This document shows, one piece after another, positions 55,993 through 61,351 of a stretch of 64,000 bases of DNA; position 1 is the first letter of the stretch, and each line of letters opens with the position of its first letter. The notes under the pieces are model-generated. The model ran no database searches and was not told the DNA's origin. It was given only the letters and a program-made list of their open reading frames with translations. Position numbers and translations under genes: made by a program. The DNA is from Thiobacillus sp. (GTDB lineage Bacteria; Pseudomonadota; Gammaproteobacteria; Burkholderiales; Thiobacillaceae): positions 1-64,000 of the forward strand of contig NZ_JAUYRI010000033.1 of the NCBI RefSeq assembly GCF_030696885.1, read 5' to 3'.

Positions 55993-56101
55993 CCATTCCA
56001 GGTTGCTTTCTAACGGAGACAAGGCGGAGAGCCGCAGACAGTACATCGCAGTACGGCAAGGCTCGACAACGCAGTATCCGTTAGAAAGCAGCCTGGAATG
56101 G
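55993..56101. repeat. Palindromic element between the 4.5S RNA gene and dnaX
   Basis: A 109-bp element with 25-bp outer arms (55993-56017, 56077-56101), matching at 24 of 25 positions when inverted. Inside are smaller dyads around a GTACAT-GCAGTAC core (about 56041-56054). Its edge touches the 3' end of the 4.5S RNA gene and lies 20 bp before the dnaX start. Confidence 0.8.
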
Positions 56102-56194
56102 CGAGCCAGAACCCCGGCACTGGCATCGGTCGCTGTGGCTGCTTCCTTCCGGACCTGACCCGATTCACAACTTAGCCATGCGGGGAGGCCCGCC
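56100..56194 (-). ncRNA. ffs: 4.5S RNA (signal recognition particle RNA)
   Basis: The minus strand contains the conserved SRP apical region GGTCAGGTCCGGAAGGAAGC followed by AGCC, which binds Ffh. The 5' end GGCGGGCC pairs with the 3' end GGCTCGCC (one G-U), closing the long hairpin, and GCCGGGGTT matches the usual 3' side. Length about 95 nt is right for the bacterial short form. It sits upstream of dnaX, a common position. Confidence 0.93.
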
Positions 56195-56219: not shown

Positions 56220-57293
56220 TTATTCCTCATCCGCCGGCGCGGTCAGCCGGCGTTTTTTCACGGCGTCGGCCAGCATGCGCAGCAGCGGCACGGTGTCGTC
56301 CCAGCCGATGCAGGCGTCGGTGATTGACTTGGCGTATTCCAGCGGCTGGCCCGGCACCAGATCCTGGCGCCCGGCATTGAGATGGCTCTCGACCATGGCG
56401 CCGATGATGCGCATGTCGCCGCCGGCCACCTGGGCGGCCACCTCGGCGCCCACATCGATCTGGCGCTGGTGCTGCTTGCTCGAATTGGCGTGCGAAAAAT
56501 CGATCATCAACTGCTGGCGCAGGCCGGCAGCGGCCAGTTCGCCGCACGCCAGATTGACGCTCGCGGCGTCGTAGTTGGGCGTCTTGCCGCCGCGCAGGAT
56601 CACATGGGTGTCCTCGTTGCCCGTGGTGCTGAACACGCCGACGTGGCCCGACTTGGTGATGGAGATGAAATGGTGGCGCCCCGCTGCCGCCTTGATCGCA
56701 TCCACGGCGATCCGCAGGCTGCCATCGGTACCGTTCTTGAACCCCACCGGGCACGACAGGCCGGACGCCAGCTGGCGGTGCGACTGCGACTCGGTGGTGC
56801 GCGCGCCGATTGCACCCCAGCTCACCAGGTCGGCTATGTACTGCGGCGACACCAGGTCGAGGAACTCGGTCGCGCATGGCAGACCGATTTCACTGATCTC
56901 CAGCAATAACTTGCGTGCCAGCCGCAGGCCCTCGTTGATGTCGTAGCTCTCGTTCAGATGCGGGTCGTTGATCAGGCCTTTCCAGCCCACGGTGGTGCGC
57001 GGCTTCTCGAAATACACCCGCATCACGATAATGAGCTCGTGCGCGAGTTCGTCAGCCAGCGGTTTCAACTTGCGGGCATAATCCAGCGCAGCATCCGGGT
57101 CATGAATGGAACACGGTCCGACGATGATGAACAGGCGATCATCCGCCCCGCGCAGCACGTCGTGGATCGCGCTGCGCGCATGCGCCACATGCGCGTGCAC
57201 GGCCTCGCTGGCACGCAGCTCGCGCATGATCTGCATCGGTGCGAGCAGTTCGCCGCTTTGCTCGATGCGGGTGTCGTCGGTTCGGGTAGACAT
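56220..57293 (-). CDS. DAHP synthase (class I, AroF/G/H type)
   Basis: A 357-residue enzyme condensing phosphoenolpyruvate and erythrose-4-phosphate, the first step of the shikimate pathway. Motifs: FIIVGPCSIHDPDAALDYA, MRVYFEKPRTTVGWKGLIND, GARTTESQSHRQLASGLSCP, and VILRGGKTPNYDA. Which aromatic amino acid inhibits it cannot be told from the protein, but the leader upstream carries Phe and Tyr codons and a terminator, suggesting phenylalanine/tyrosine attenuation. The start MSTRTDDTRIEQ has GGAG about 7 bases upstream. Confidence 0.95.
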   Translation of the reverse strand: MSTRTDDTRIEQSGELLAPMQIMRELRASEAVHAHVAHARSAIHDVLRGADDRLFIIVGPCSIHDPDAALDYARKLKPLADELAHELIIVMRVYFEKPRTTVGWKGLINDPHLNESYDINEGLRLARKLLLEISEIGLPCATEFLDLVSPQYIADLVSWGAIGARTTESQSHRQLASGLSCPVGFKNGTDGSLRIAVDAIKAAAGRHHFISITKSGHVGVFSTTGNEDTHVILRGGKTPNYDAASVNLACGELAAAGLRQQLMIDFSHANSSKQHQRQIDVGAEVAAQVAGGDMRIIGAMVESHLNAGRQDLVPGQPLEYAKSITDACIGWDDTVPLLRMLADAVKKRRLTAPADEE

Positions 57294-57343
57294 GTTCTGG
57301 CTCCGTAAATGTGCGTTGCATTGCGGCGGCGGCGTCCTAAACG

Positions 57344-57370
57344 AAAAAACCGCCAGCGGGCTGGCGGTTT
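57344..57370 (-). terminator. Attenuator terminator upstream of DAHP synthase
   Basis: On the minus strand the 10-bp stem AAACCGCCAG/CTGGCGGTTT with a 4-nt loop (57347-57370) is followed by a run of U. No minus-strand gene ends here: the next gene is the DAHP synthase downstream and the only upstream coding unit is the leader peptide. It is therefore a leader terminator. GGCGGT at 57405-57410 can pair with ACCGCC (57363-57368) to form an antiterminator. Confidence 0.75.
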
Positions 57371-57391
57371 CGTCAAGGCCGGCTGTTCGTC

Positions 57392-57460
57392 TCAGCGCCT
57401 CCCGACCGCCTGTGGCGTGGGATAAAAGCGGCTAAAAAAGAACTTCCCGGCATGGATCAT
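57392..57460 (-). CDS. Phe/Tyr-rich leader peptide of the DAHP synthase attenuator
   Basis: A 22-codon ORF (ATG at 57460, TGA at 57392-57394). Its peptide has KFFFSRFYPTP at positions 6-16: three consecutive Phe codons (57434-57442), a fourth at 57425-57427 and a Tyr at 57422-57424. It is followed 22 bp later by a terminator hairpin. This is the hallmark of ribosome-mediated attenuation, like pheL. A ribosome stalled at the Phe codons would leave the antiterminator strand 57404-57412 free. The ribosome-binding site is not clear. Confidence 0.72.
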   Translation of the reverse strand: MIHAGKFFFSRFYPTPQAVGRR

Positions 57461-57467
57461 GCATGGC

Positions 57468-57497
57468 AGTCTATCAAATTAGACCAGACCCCGCCAA
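57468..57497 (-). promoter_or_regulatory. Candidate promoter of the DAHP synthase leader
   Basis: On the minus strand TTGGCG (57492-57497), an 18-bp spacer and TAGACT (57468-57473) resemble a sigma-70 promoter. The expected start, near 57461, would leave little or no untranslated sequence before the leader ATG, so the true promoter could lie further upstream. Confidence 0.3.
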
Positions 57498-57583
57498 GCG
57501 CTTTGTGCCGGCCGGGGCACCCCGATCCGGGCACGCCACCGCCTCGTTCCAGGACCGGCGAGGCAAACATAAGGAGAAACAGC

Positions 57584-60500
57584 GTGGAAACAATGGCCAA
57601 GGTGTCCGACACTCAACACCCCACTCGGGAAATGCGTCGCGACAGGCGTTTTCAGGTTTCGCAGGCGGCCATGATCTCGCAGCCCGGACACGCGGAAATT
57701 GCCTGTGGAATCCGCGATTTTTGCCAGGGCGGCCTGTTCCTCAAATTTTCCAATCCGGAAACCGCGATCGCGTCGCTGGCCCAGCGTACCGATGCCGTGG
57801 TCGAGATCGTCGTGACCCCGGTCGGTAGCCAGGGCTTCCGTATTCCGGCGCAACTCAAACGCCTGAGCCCGCTCGGCATCGGTGTCGCATTCACCCAGCA
57901 GCCGACGGACGCCTTGCGTGCGCTGCAAAAGCTGCGCATGGCCGAACACCGGCGACGTTTTTCCCTCCTGCCCACAACCGATGCAAACCCGCATCTACGT
58001 GAAGCCTGCACCACCCTGCTGAGCGAAACCCTGTTCCAGGTTCATGACCAATTGATGCGCATGCTGGGCGAAAAGCTGAGCGCTGCCGCCCTGCATGCCA
58101 CCGGCATTTCAGAACACAGCGGCTTGCTGGGTGCTGTCAACGAGTTCAGCACCCACGCGGCAAGCGTGCAAACCCGCTTCGTTCAGCAGGTGCTGGATGC
58201 GCTGAAGCAGGCGAGTCCGGTGCAGACCCAGGCCACCCGCGACACCCTCGATGGCGCGCTGGCACTGGTCGACGAGCTTGATTTCGAGGACTGGCTTGCC
58301 ACCTCGTCCGAGGCCAACAAGCTGGAAGAGCAGTTCCGCGAGCAGCTTGCCGATATCGAACCCCGCATTGGCCAGGTGTTCGGCTTTGCCTGCGATAGCA
58401 ACAGCAACCCCTTTGGCCCCGCCGTCATCGGCCATGCCTATCGCATCGCGCTGCAGGATCTGCCCTTACTGGCGCGCGCACGCCAGGTGGCCTACACCAC
58501 GCTGCGCGAGGTCCTGGCCGAGCCGCTTGCCGCGCTCTATGCCGAACTGCTGGCACTGCTGCCCGTTTCGCAGGCCGAAGTCGAGCAGCAGAAAGCCATC
58601 GCCACGCCGCAGTCGCAGTCGCAGTCGCAGTCGCAGCCGCAGCCGCTGCATGTCCCGCCACAGACTGAAACTGCGGAGCATGCCGCCCCCCCATCGCAAG
58701 GCGCGCTGAGTCGCCTGACCGGCTCGCTGATGGATTTCTTCCGTGGCCAGCCCGCAGCGGCATCCGCGCCCACTGGTGCGCCCGCTGCCGCACCCGCCGG
58801 CGCCCCGGCCACCATGGCGTCCGGCCATGCCGCCCAGGGCGCCGTCGCCAACGCGAGTCCTCAGCCGACGCGGGTCGGCATGCCCGGTATCGCACCCTCG
58901 CCGGTGCTGCAGCGTCTGGCGTCTGCGGGCGCACTGCCGGCCACGGTCACCCAGGAAATGCAACGTTCGGTCGACATGTTCGGTGCGCTGTTCGACACCA
59001 TGCACGCCGAGAAATCGGTCAGCGAGGGCATGCGGCCCTTCTTTCAGCAGCTGGAAACCAGCCTGATCAAACTGGCGATGTCCGACCCGCAATTTCTCAG
59101 CTCGCCCTCCCATCCGGCGCACAAGGTGCTGAACACGCTCGACCGCATCAGCATGGCCGCGGGAGACGACGGCAAGATCACTGATCAACGCCTGATGCGC
59201 CTGATGAGCCGCTGGACCGACCGCATCAATTCCGAGGCCGACAAGAACCCGGGCGTGTTCGAAGAAGCCCGCACCCAGCTCGAGCGCGTGCTGAAGCCCA
59301 TCCTGAACGAGCGCACCGCGCGCGTATCCCGCCTGCAGGCCATGTGCGAAGGCCGCCAGCACGCCGACGGGGTCAAGCAGCGCATCCTGCGCGAACTGCT
59401 GGCGCGCATGGGCGAACGCATGGTGCCCAACGCCGTGATCGAACTGTTGAACGGCGGCTGGCGCAACGTGCTGCTGATCGCCGAAATGCGCCATGGCGCC
59501 GACAGCAACGAAGCACGCGAAGCCTGGCAGTTCCTGCACCAGCTGTGCACCTGGCTGGACCCGGAACGGGCCACCCCCCCCAGCGCGGCCGCTGTCCAGG
59601 CGCTGCTGCAACGCATCGACCAGGCGCTGACCCAGGTCTGCGCCGACAAGTTTGCGCAGGACCGCATCGTCGACCAGCTTGCCAGTGCGCTGTTCGATAC
59701 GGACAGCGCACAGCAACAGCACAGCCCGATCGCCGCCCGCCTCAACGACGCCGCCAGCGAGCCCCTGAGCGAGGCACAGGACATGCTGGCCGGGCGCCTG
59801 CGGGTTGGCGACTGGCTGCTGTTCAACTCGTTCGACACACCGCTCAATCTGGTGTGGATCGGCGACGAGCTGCCGGTGTACGTGTTCGCCAACTACCGCG
59901 GCATCAAGAAGCTCGACATCAAGCGCCAGGATCTGCTGCGATCGCTGGAGTCCGGCGAAGCACGCTGGACCGAAGACCTGGAACTGCCGCTGATGGACCG
60001 TTCCTACAGTGCAATGATCCAGAAGATGCAGCGCGATCTGGTGTGGCAGGCCACCCACGACCCCGCCACTGGGCTCGCCAACCGCAAGCATTTCTTCCGC
60101 TCCATCCGTCGCGACTGGCTGAGGAGCCCGTCACGCGACAGTGGCTGCGCCATCGGTGTCGTCCAGCTCGACATCAGCACCCCTGCGGGCGATGCGGCTG
60201 GAAGCGACATCCGCATTCCCATCCTGCGCGATCTCGCCCAGATGTTGCCTGCACACCTGCCACCCGGCGCGCTGCTCGCGCGCGCCGGCGAATCCGGTCT
60301 GGCATTCTGGGTCGCGGCCGCCGACAGTGCTGCCGCCCAGGCCCAGGCCGCATCGCTGGTCAGCGTCATCGCCGCGCAGCTGCAGGAAATCAACGGCGTC
60401 CGCTACCGCATCCATGCAGTGGCCGGCCTGATGTGGGCAAGCGACTGGCTCAGTCCCGAAACCTATTACGACAACGCCAACGCAGCCTGCGCCCGCGCGC

Positions 60501-61351
60501 GCGAATCGGGCAATGCGGTGGTTGAATATGGCAGCCAGACAGACGACAGCGGCGTGATGGCACTGGCGCAATGGGCGCACGAACTGACTTCCATCCTCGC
60601 CAACAACCAGCTCAGTCTCGACTGCCAGCCGGTGGTGGCCACCGCCGACGTCCAGCAGGCCACCGAAGTGCACACAGACGTGTCGGTCGCGAACAGCCCG
60701 CTGTATTACGAAGTGCTGCTGCACCCAGTCACCCAGGCCGAGCACACCTTCCCCACGCGCGACCTGATCGACGTGGCCGAGCGGCTGCAGCGCATCACCG
60801 AAATCGACCGCTGGGTCGTCCGGCACGTGCTGCAGTGGATGCGCGACCACACCGACAGCCTTGCCCGGATCGGGGGGCTCTCGATCAATCTGTCAGGCCA
60901 GTCCGTCATCAACCCGCTGTTCCTGAAGTTTCTGTTGTCCGAGCTGTCACACGGCGACATCCCCGGCGACAAGCTGATTTTCGAAATCAGCGAAGCCGAC
61001 GCCGTCGAAGGCCACGCCCAGACCCAGATGTTCATGCGCCAGCTGCAGCGCCACGGCTGCCGCTTCACCCTCGACGATTTTGGCGTAGGCAGCAGTTCCT
61101 ACACCAGCCTGAAGAGCATGAAGCTCGACCACCTGAAGATCGATCGCGCCCTGGTGCGGGAAATCACCACCAGCATGATCGACGAGGCACTGGTGCGCTC
61201 CATCATGGAGACGGGGAGCTTCCTCGGGATCAGGACGGTGGCGGGGTTTGTCGAGGATGCGGAGACGCTGGCGAAACTGGAGGAGATGGAGGTGGATTGT
61301 GTGCAGGGGTATTTTATTGGGGAACCGAAGCCGCTGGACACGCTGGCCTGA
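57584..61351 (+). CDS. PilZ-DUF1631-GGDEF-EAL multidomain c-di-GMP-type protein
   Basis: A 1255-residue cytosolic protein. Start GTG 57584 has AAGGAG seven bases upstream; the open frame extends to 57452, but that part has no ribosome site. Domains: PilZ-like (residues about 12-115, RRDRRFQVSQ, IRDFCQGGLF with Cys where Ser is usual). A DUF1631 region follows (about 130-770, LQAMCEGRQHADGVKQRILR). Next is a degenerate GGDEF (about 825-960, RAGESGLAFW instead of GGDEF). An EAL domain (about 1035-1250) reads EVL, with DDFGVGS and FEISE kept. Probably a c-di-GMP effector or weak phosphodiesterase. Confidence 0.88.
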   Translation: METMAKVSDTQHPTREMRRDRRFQVSQAAMISQPGHAEIACGIRDFCQGGLFLKFSNPETAIASLAQRTDAVVEIVVTPVGSQGFRIPAQLKRLSPLGIGVAFTQQPTDALRALQKLRMAEHRRRFSLLPTTDANPHLREACTTLLSETLFQVHDQLMRMLGEKLSAAALHATGISEHSGLLGAVNEFSTHAASVQTRFVQQVLDALKQASPVQTQATRDTLDGALALVDELDFEDWLATSSEANKLEEQFREQLADIEPRIGQVFGFACDSNSNPFGPAVIGHAYRIALQDLPLLARARQVAYTTLREVLAEPLAALYAELLALLPVSQAEVEQQKAIATPQSQSQSQSQPQPLHVPPQTETAEHAAPPSQGALSRLTGSLMDFFRGQPAAASAPTGAPAAAPAGAPATMASGHAAQGAVANASPQPTRVGMPGIAPSPVLQRLASAGALPATVTQEMQRSVDMFGALFDTMHAEKSVSEGMRPFFQQLETSLIKLAMSDPQFLSSPSHPAHKVLNTLDRISMAAGDDGKITDQRLMRLMSRWTDRINSEADKNPGVFEEARTQLERVLKPILNERTARVSRLQAMCEGRQHADGVKQRILRELLARMGERMVPNAVIELLNGGWRNVLLIAEMRHGADSNEAREAWQFLHQLCTWLDPERATPPSAAAVQALLQRIDQALTQVCADKFAQDRIVDQLASALFDTDSAQQQHSPIAARLNDAASEPLSEAQDMLAGRLRVGDWLLFNSFDTPLNLVWIGDELPVYVFANYRGIKKLDIKRQDLLRSLESGEARWTEDLELPLMDRSYSAMIQKMQRDLVWQATHDPATGLANRKHFFRSIRRDWLRSPSRDSGCAIGVVQLDISTPAGDAAGSDIRIPILRDLAQMLPAHLPPGALLARAGESGLAFWVAAADSAAAQAQAASLVSVIAAQLQEINGVRYRIHAVAGLMWASDWLSPETYYDNANAACARARESGNAVVEYGSQTDDSGVMALAQWAHELTSILANNQLSLDCQPVVATADVQQATEVHTDVSVANSPLYYEVLLHPVTQAEHTFPTRDLIDVAERLQRITEIDRWVVRHVLQWMRDHTDSLARIGGLSINLSGQSVINPLFLKFLLSELSHGDIPGDKLIFEISEADAVEGHAQTQMFMRQLQRHGCRFTLDDFGVGSSSYTSLKSMKLDHLKIDRALVREITTSMIDEALVRSIMETGSFLGIRTVAGFVEDAETLAKLEEMEVDCVQGYFIGEPKPLDTLA
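58610..58645 (+). repeat. Short CAGTCG tandem repeat in the PilZ-EAL gene
   Basis: Four CAGTCG units followed by two CAGCCG units encode Gln-Ser and Gln-Pro pairs in a linker of the large protein. The 6-bp unit keeps the frame whatever the copy number. Confidence 0.8.

Follow-up and report, generated by a model that had tools for sequence, protein, structure and literature searches.

Leaders proposed to sense aromatic amino acids have been described ahead of DAHP synthase genes in other bacteria. In Corynebacterium glutamicum, the aroR leader, with a Phe-Tyr-Phe stretch, precedes the DAHP synthase gene aroF (PMC4046766; PMC11802643), and ribosome stalling on aroR under phenylalanine limitation has been reported (PMC4046766; PMC11802643, a review citing Neshat et al. 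2014). In Acholeplasma, the uORFC-13-1 motif is described as a predicted Phe-reading uORF and a terminator before aroF, a DAHP synthase gene (PMC8632094). Putative attenuators have been proposed before aroA(I-alpha,Y)-tyrA in Vibrio (PMC1173090), and Shewanella aroF has been listed with a hypothesised attenuator, an idea that came from E. coli (PMC2659441). We found no report of such an element in Betaproteobacteria in the open-licence PMC literature.

We analyzed a stretch of Thiobacillus sp. DNA of 64,000 nucleotides, referred to here as the window. Its minus strand carries a 22-codon ORF. An intrinsic terminator comes 20 nt after it, and a DAHP synthase gene begins a further 52 nt downstream. 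As in the aroR type, a Phe/Tyr-reading leader lies immediately upstream of DAHP synthase; the two are likened here by description, not by sequence. The arrangement is very probably a ribosome-mediated transcription attenuator, by which the supply of charged tRNA-Phe and tRNA-Tyr would set the expression of the only DAHP synthase of the genome. The original prediction had proposed attenuation, and the ORF, terminator, alternative pairing, stall geometry and conservation fit it, with control by Phe and Tyr as its presumed outcome. The ORF, promoter-like boxes, terminator, complementarity, spacing and conservation can be read directly from the DNA; from these we infer the transcription start, translation, stalling, termination and Phe/Tyr response.

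The leader, the terminator and the DAHP synthase gene

The leader ORF (57392..57460, minus strand) consists of 22 codons and a TGA stop, MIHAGKFFFSRFYPTPQAVGRR. It contains the codons Phe7-Phe8-Phe9 (TTC TTT TTT, 57434..57442) and Phe12-Tyr13 (TTT TAT, 57422..57427), the latter being the likely control codons. This is the leader that had been predicted, with three Phe codons in a row plus Phe and Tyr. The terminator, GAAACCGCCAG-CCCG-CTGGCGGTTTT with a T-run (57344..57371, minus strand), forms an 11-pair hairpin at 57371-57346 and its T-run extends to 57344. Because the neighbouring ORF upstream (57452..61351, plus strand) is divergent, there is no upstream gene that the terminator could serve, as had also been noted. 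The leader stop codon lies 98 nt and the hairpin end 52 nt upstream of the DAHP synthase start, which corrects an earlier estimate of a 134-bp scale. GGCGGT in the leader (57410-57405) was found to be complementary to ACCGCC (57368-57363) in the 5' arm of the terminator, in agreement with the pairing first suggested. The DAHP synthase gene has a Shine-Dalgarno-like ACGGAG at 57301..57306 (minus strand).

This combination is rare by several measures. The window contains eight strong terminator-like sites, and an aromatic-rich short ORF precedes just this one. At least five aromatic residues within 10 codons were found at 1 of 1899 short-ORF starts in the window. When the 317-nt region was shuffled 2000 times with dinucleotides preserved, 53 shuffles had just the aromatic ORF and 5 just a terminator with 11 or more pairs; none had both. 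The leader RNA folded better than every one of 200 shuffles (z -3.28). In the genome, the terminator pattern is confined to a single position, a second listed match being the same hairpin on the opposite strand. The divergent ORF, of 1299 codons, has matches of the GGDEF and EAL type; it overlaps the leader, on the opposite strand, only if its most upstream ATG is used, and it likelier begins at GTG 57584 or ATG 57593, which stand behind an AAGGAG.

The gene downstream (56220..57293, minus strand) encodes a 357-aa 3-deoxy-7-phosphoheptulonate (DAHP) synthase of the AroF/G/H type (TIGR00034, 530 bits). The protein is a type I enzyme, with a score of 553.6 against the AroG equivalog model, slightly below the cut-off of 568, and the E. 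coli Phe-regulated (Phe-sensitive) enzyme is among its nearest solved chains. It was the single DAHP synthase gene found in the genome, which is 99.83% complete; no class II DAHP synthase was matched there, and the second PF00793 protein proved to be KDO8P synthase. The same scan detected neither a strong terminator nor an aromatic leader directly before pheA and trpE of this genome. The pheA gene overlaps the preceding gene and trpE lies 120 nt after another gene, and both may belong to longer operons with a leader at the operon head. With one enzyme gene and one attenuator at the first step of aromatic synthesis, supply might be gauged here at the gate and not at the branches. Directly 3' of the DAHP synthase gene lies a small SRP RNA (RF00169, 71.4 bits; 56097-56194, minus strand). 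Past the SRP RNA gene, an inverted repeat of about 100 bp with long arms (55998-56098) surfaced through chance Rfam hits; a 27-base piece from its middle has one copy in the genome, and by that test it is not a dispersed repeat.

To describe conservation within the genus, we used the locus itself and 19 full-length loci from 24 sampled same-genus relatives, the other five giving partial matches (three) or no match (two). At 90-91% identity, the named relatives comprise one Thiobacillus sp. and one Thiobacillaceae MAG. Homologous loci lacking the leader or the terminator had been named as evidence that would count against attenuation; in the genus, the 69-nt ORF and the terminator were both present in 20 of the 20 loci examined. 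Among the 17 distinct leaders of the genus, Phe7, Phe8 and Phe9 are Phe in 14, 14 and 16, respectively; 16 leaders retain Phe12 and 16 retain Tyr13. Codons 18-21, which make up most of the pairing segment called segment 2 below, are invariant, and segment 2 and the 3' leader region are nearly so. In one genus member (L015), the aromatic run is reduced to three codons. Pairwise single-nucleotide codon differences comprised 330 non-synonymous and 216 synonymous changes, a ratio of 1.53 compared with 2.87 expected, and the leader ORF is thus under mild purifying selection, the pairwise counts not being independent. The element is missing from the second DAHP synthase copies that we examined in two members of the genus.

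Upstream of the leader ORF, an extended -10-like box, (TGA)TAGACT (57468..57473, minus strand), ends 7 nt before the ATG, and a weak -35-like hexamer, TTGGCG (57492..57497, minus strand), is separated from it by an 18-nt spacer. A TARACT hexamer ending 6-7 nt upstream of the leader ATG was found in all 20 genus loci and the -35-like hexamer stands in the same place in 13 of them. A scan for sigma-70-type promoters with at least 9 of 12 matches called no site within 57200-57800, these two boxes included. From the position of the -10-like box, transcription is predicted to start at the A of the leader ATG or one nucleotide earlier (57460/57461). The leader ORF of the window has no Shine-Dalgarno match; across groups, a match of -5 kcal/mol or better preceded 6 of 74 leaders versus 63 of the 70 DAHP synthase starts that follow such leaders. 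In groups outside the genus, a -10-like hexamer was found 5-9 nt before the ATG of 15 out of 55 leaders, versus 1 of 70 DAHP synthase starts. The close -10-like box combined with the missing Shine-Dalgarno sequence suggests that the leader mRNA is leaderless in the genus and in several other groups. The close -10 box is absent from the Burkholderia- and Massilia-type leaders.

Modelled stalling and alternative folding of the leader RNA

Two segments of the leader RNA are central to the proposed mechanism. Segment 2, GGCGGTCG (57403..57410, minus strand), is the putative 5' strand of an antiterminator, and segment 3, CGAAACCGCC (57363..57372, minus strand), its putative 3' strand, as judged from folding and from swaps between lineages. 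Segment 3 overlaps the 5' arm of the terminator, and the two segments are predicted to pair when Tyr13 is in the A site. Transcription would begin at the leader ATG or immediately ahead of it, yielding a leaderless leader mRNA. When aromatic amino acids are plentiful, the ribosome would reach the stop codon and cover GGCGG in segment 2; segments 3 and 4 would then form the terminator, and transcription would stop short of the gene. Under Phe or Tyr shortage, the ribosome would stall at Phe7-9 or at Phe12-Tyr13. GGCGGTCG would then emerge just ahead of it and pair with CGAAACCGCC before the 3' arm of the terminator exists, and this pairing would let RNA polymerase read through into the DAHP synthase gene.

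To model stalling, we masked the RNA as far as 13 nt beyond the beginning of the A-site codon and folded what remained, with the terminator 3' arm not yet made. The folding set comprised 55 loci (56 minus L067, a false call). With Tyr13 in the A site, the window RNA was predicted to form an antiterminator of GGCGGUCG and CGAAACCGCC at -23.5 kcal/mol, and the antiterminator probability dropped just past Tyr13. Over the 20 genus loci, the mean probability fell from 0.85 at aromatic codons to 0.16 at the stop codon; over 33 other loci, with L031 and L032 left out, it fell from 0.905 to 0.07. The stop-codon value of the window itself is 0.31, against a mean of 0.12. By the cut-offs that we chose, 66 of 74 distinct leaders switch and 8 do not, the latter including L198, for which too short a start was picked, and L127, which has a doubtful GTG start.

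Averaged over aromatic codons, the modelled switch held over a range of ribosome dimensions. As the ribosome front was varied from 9 to 17 nt, the average at aromatic codons went from 0.90 to 0.83 and that at the stop codon from 0.17 to 0.07. For the last aromatic codon alone, the antiterminator probability was 0.91 with a 9-nt front and 0.54 with a 17-nt front. Shuffled spacers gave a mean antiterminator probability of 0.53 compared with 0.83 observed, a baseline that is due to the GC-rich terminator arm, and for 55 of 74 loci the observed value was reached by no more than 10% of 40 spacer shuffles. The ribosome-free antiterminator probability was 0.14 in the window, 0.05-1.00 within the genus and 0.00-1.00 among all 55 loci. 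As ribosome-free behaviour differs between loci, a protector hairpin common to them is putative at most.

A search for alternative hairpins had been proposed as a check of the original prediction, and its outcome depended on how the RNA was folded. The antiterminator appeared co-transcriptionally with a stalled ribosome, whereas equilibrium folding of the full RNA gave no switch in most loci: the terminator prevailed whichever codon of the window leader was taken, and it did so in the majority of relatives as well. Since the terminator nearly always wins at equilibrium, the switch, if real, must be kinetic. Kinetic switching is commonly held to operate in attenuators.

The pairing segments are near-invariant, which makes covariation within the genus uninformative, and for this reason we swapped segments between lineages. 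Against terminator arms, segment 2 gave an extension of 2.05 with its own arm and 1.66 with swapped arms, and none of 1000 swaps was as good (37 distinct segments). Segments 2 and 3 thus co-vary among lineages, as judged by swaps that correct only partly for relatedness. The locus has the hallmarks of a ribosome-mediated attenuator in its clustered codons for product amino acids within a short ORF and in the intrinsic terminator between leader and gene. An antiterminator that excludes the terminator and is exposed by stalling is found in co-transcriptional folding and in covariation, not at equilibrium.

Distribution of the element and the codons of its leaders

DAHP synthase loci were matched in 252 cases, 251 of them with usable upstream DNA (that of L081 was too short to count). 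Two detection rules were applied, a terminator rule and a motif rule, the latter combining an aromatic ORF, GGCGG and a terminator core. Of the 251 loci, 78 were positive by the terminator rule, 81 by the motif rule and 86 by either. On the antisense strand, the motif rule called 0 of 251 and the terminator rule 2 of 251; inside the gene, the terminator rule called 0 of 252. L031 and L032, whose contigs equal those of L016 and L013 in length, are taken as the same loci as these and are still within the 251 and the 86, and within the count for named contigs, of which 31 out of 79 carry the element. In an even sample of the order (160 genomes), 126 had a match, among the matches listed, and 121 of these were examined, leaving out G065, G081, G109, G146 and G179. 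The element was found in 37 of the 121 genomes, in 13 of 37 families represented, and the remaining 84 were without it by both rules.

Carriers include Burkholderia, Paraburkholderia, Caballeronia, Cupriavidus, Massilia, Rugamonas and Janthinobacterium, and also Devosia, Bradyrhizobium and one Lysobacterales MAG. None of 10 enteric or Vibrionaceae loci had the element; they were picked as best hits to the protein of the window, and the aroF-tyrA copy may be a different one. Of 28 loci in the identity bands under 55%, none had it. In two genomes, tandem DAHP synthase genes were observed among the matches listed (L118/L139 in G046 and L119/L138 in G168), with matched stretches 73 and 53 nt apart and the attenuator before the first copy only. 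In Candidatus Burkholderia humilis (L071), the aromatic leader frame continues through the terminator (MSANKFYFYFLLASQAAGG...), and the locus is positive by the motif rule nonetheless; this leader is possibly a decayed attenuator.

We constructed a phylogenetic tree of 234 proteins, leaving out L031, L032, L081, L167, 14 genus loci and proteins shorter than 250 aa. Presence of the element required 14 changes on this tree, compared with at least 53 in 200 shuffles. One clade contained the element in 55 of its 68 members, including all three alphaproteobacterial loci: the element-bearing loci of Devosia and Bradyrhizobium (L105, L076 and L108) sit in this mainly betaproteobacterial clade. Their position inside an element-bearing clade suggests that gene and attenuator were transferred together into alphaproteobacterial lineages.

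The leader of the window has Phe and Tyr codons only. Across the 74 distinct leaders there are 300 Phe, 136 Tyr and 43 Trp codons, with Phe present in 74, Tyr in 70 and Trp in 36 leaders. GGCGG was found 3' of the aromatic run in 69 of the 74 (controls, 13/74 and 8/74). Its most frequent position, in 33 of the 69, is 14 nt from the start of the last aromatic codon, which corresponds to the modelled end of the ribosome.

Other explanations and related systems

The hairpin might be an ordinary or bidirectional terminator, or one that stabilizes mRNA, with the Phe-rich ORF before it by chance. An aromatic-rich short ORF did appear in 53 of the 2000 shuffles of the region, and the terminator is dominant at equilibrium. 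However, this strand has no upstream gene, the ORF is kept in all 20 genus loci with biased codon changes, and aromatic ORF, GGCGG and terminator core occur together in 81 of 251 loci compared with none of the 251 antisense sequences. We therefore regard a chance arrangement as highly improbable. Conservation of the ORF as a protein within the genus would also fit a uORF acting on translation, by reinitiation or coupling, or a functional small protein, with the terminator being separate. This deserves slightly less credence again: the DAHP synthase start, 98 nt past the leader stop codon, is preceded by a Shine-Dalgarno-like site of its own, and across families the GGCGG RNA segment is retained, 8 of 69 leaders having it in a different codon phase, while the peptide is aromatic but varies in its other residues.

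Control of the terminator by a metabolite-binding riboswitch or a protein factor could account for the structured RNA (z -3.28) and for the near-invariance of segment 2 and the 3' leader region in the genus. Yet no riboswitch family within Rfam reached its gathering score, and what the families have in common is an aromatic codon run and two pairing segments, which leaves this the least probable of the three. The attenuator reading calls for nothing beyond an ordinary mechanism, and its target is a sensible one; the sequence supports it well, and the element is conserved and more widespread than the original prediction could tell.

Searches of Rfam 15 gave no family at cut-off over the leader. 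Phe_leader (RF01859, cut-off 55), the closest family in kind, was not matched in the window region at E values of up to 10; it reached 30.5 bits in the Devosia locus L105 and 23.3 bits in L108. BjrC1505 scored 22.7 bits on L044, under its cut-off of 50. A full-length match to BTH_s19 (RF02691) was rejected at 13.9 bits, the gathering score being 153, and the Burkholderia loci searched gave no such match; the published BTH_s19 is described as preceding BTH_I2095, listed as hypothetical, next to ompR/risA.

DAHP synthase had been called an uncommon target for attenuation. This is partly right, but such control has been reported from Corynebacterium, with predictions for Acholeplasma and Vibrio, and the element was found here in 37 of 121 genomes of the order. 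The set is new in its lineage and extent, as far as the literature found goes, and of a kind already known. Centred on Betaproteobacteria, it would suit an Rfam entry and the annotation of missed small ORFs, and its leaderless leaders suit a test of ribosome-polymerase coupling. More tentatively, and with rather less than even confidence, the loci may represent a large undescribed family of leaderless-mRNA attenuators of Betaproteobacteria at the entry to the shikimate pathway. Such a family would be one control point for Phe, Tyr and, in 36 of 74 leaders, Trp, and would have travelled with its gene into some Alphaproteobacteria; its RNA of about 117 nt or its peptide might act in trans, by analogy with rnTrpL/peTrpL.

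Among described systems, the E. coli pheL-pheA attenuator shares with the window a Phe-rich leader ORF, a terminator and alternative pairing, but governs pheA. C. glutamicum is an actinobacterium with two DAHP synthases, whereas the window genome has one (PMC4046766). The uORFC-13-1 motif differs in having a ribosome-binding site in its consensus, and its 24 representatives are described only from Acholeplasma and environmental sequences (PMC8632094). The Vibrio and E. coli/Shewanella attenuators resemble the window in their DAHP synthase gene and Gram-negative hosts, a comparison made at the level of gene and host. The Sinorhizobium meliloti trpL attenuator (rnTrpL/peTrpL), for which trans action of the released RNA and peptide has been reported, senses Trp and precedes trpE, unlike the window; what the two would share is a leaderless leader ORF, which is predicted for the window.
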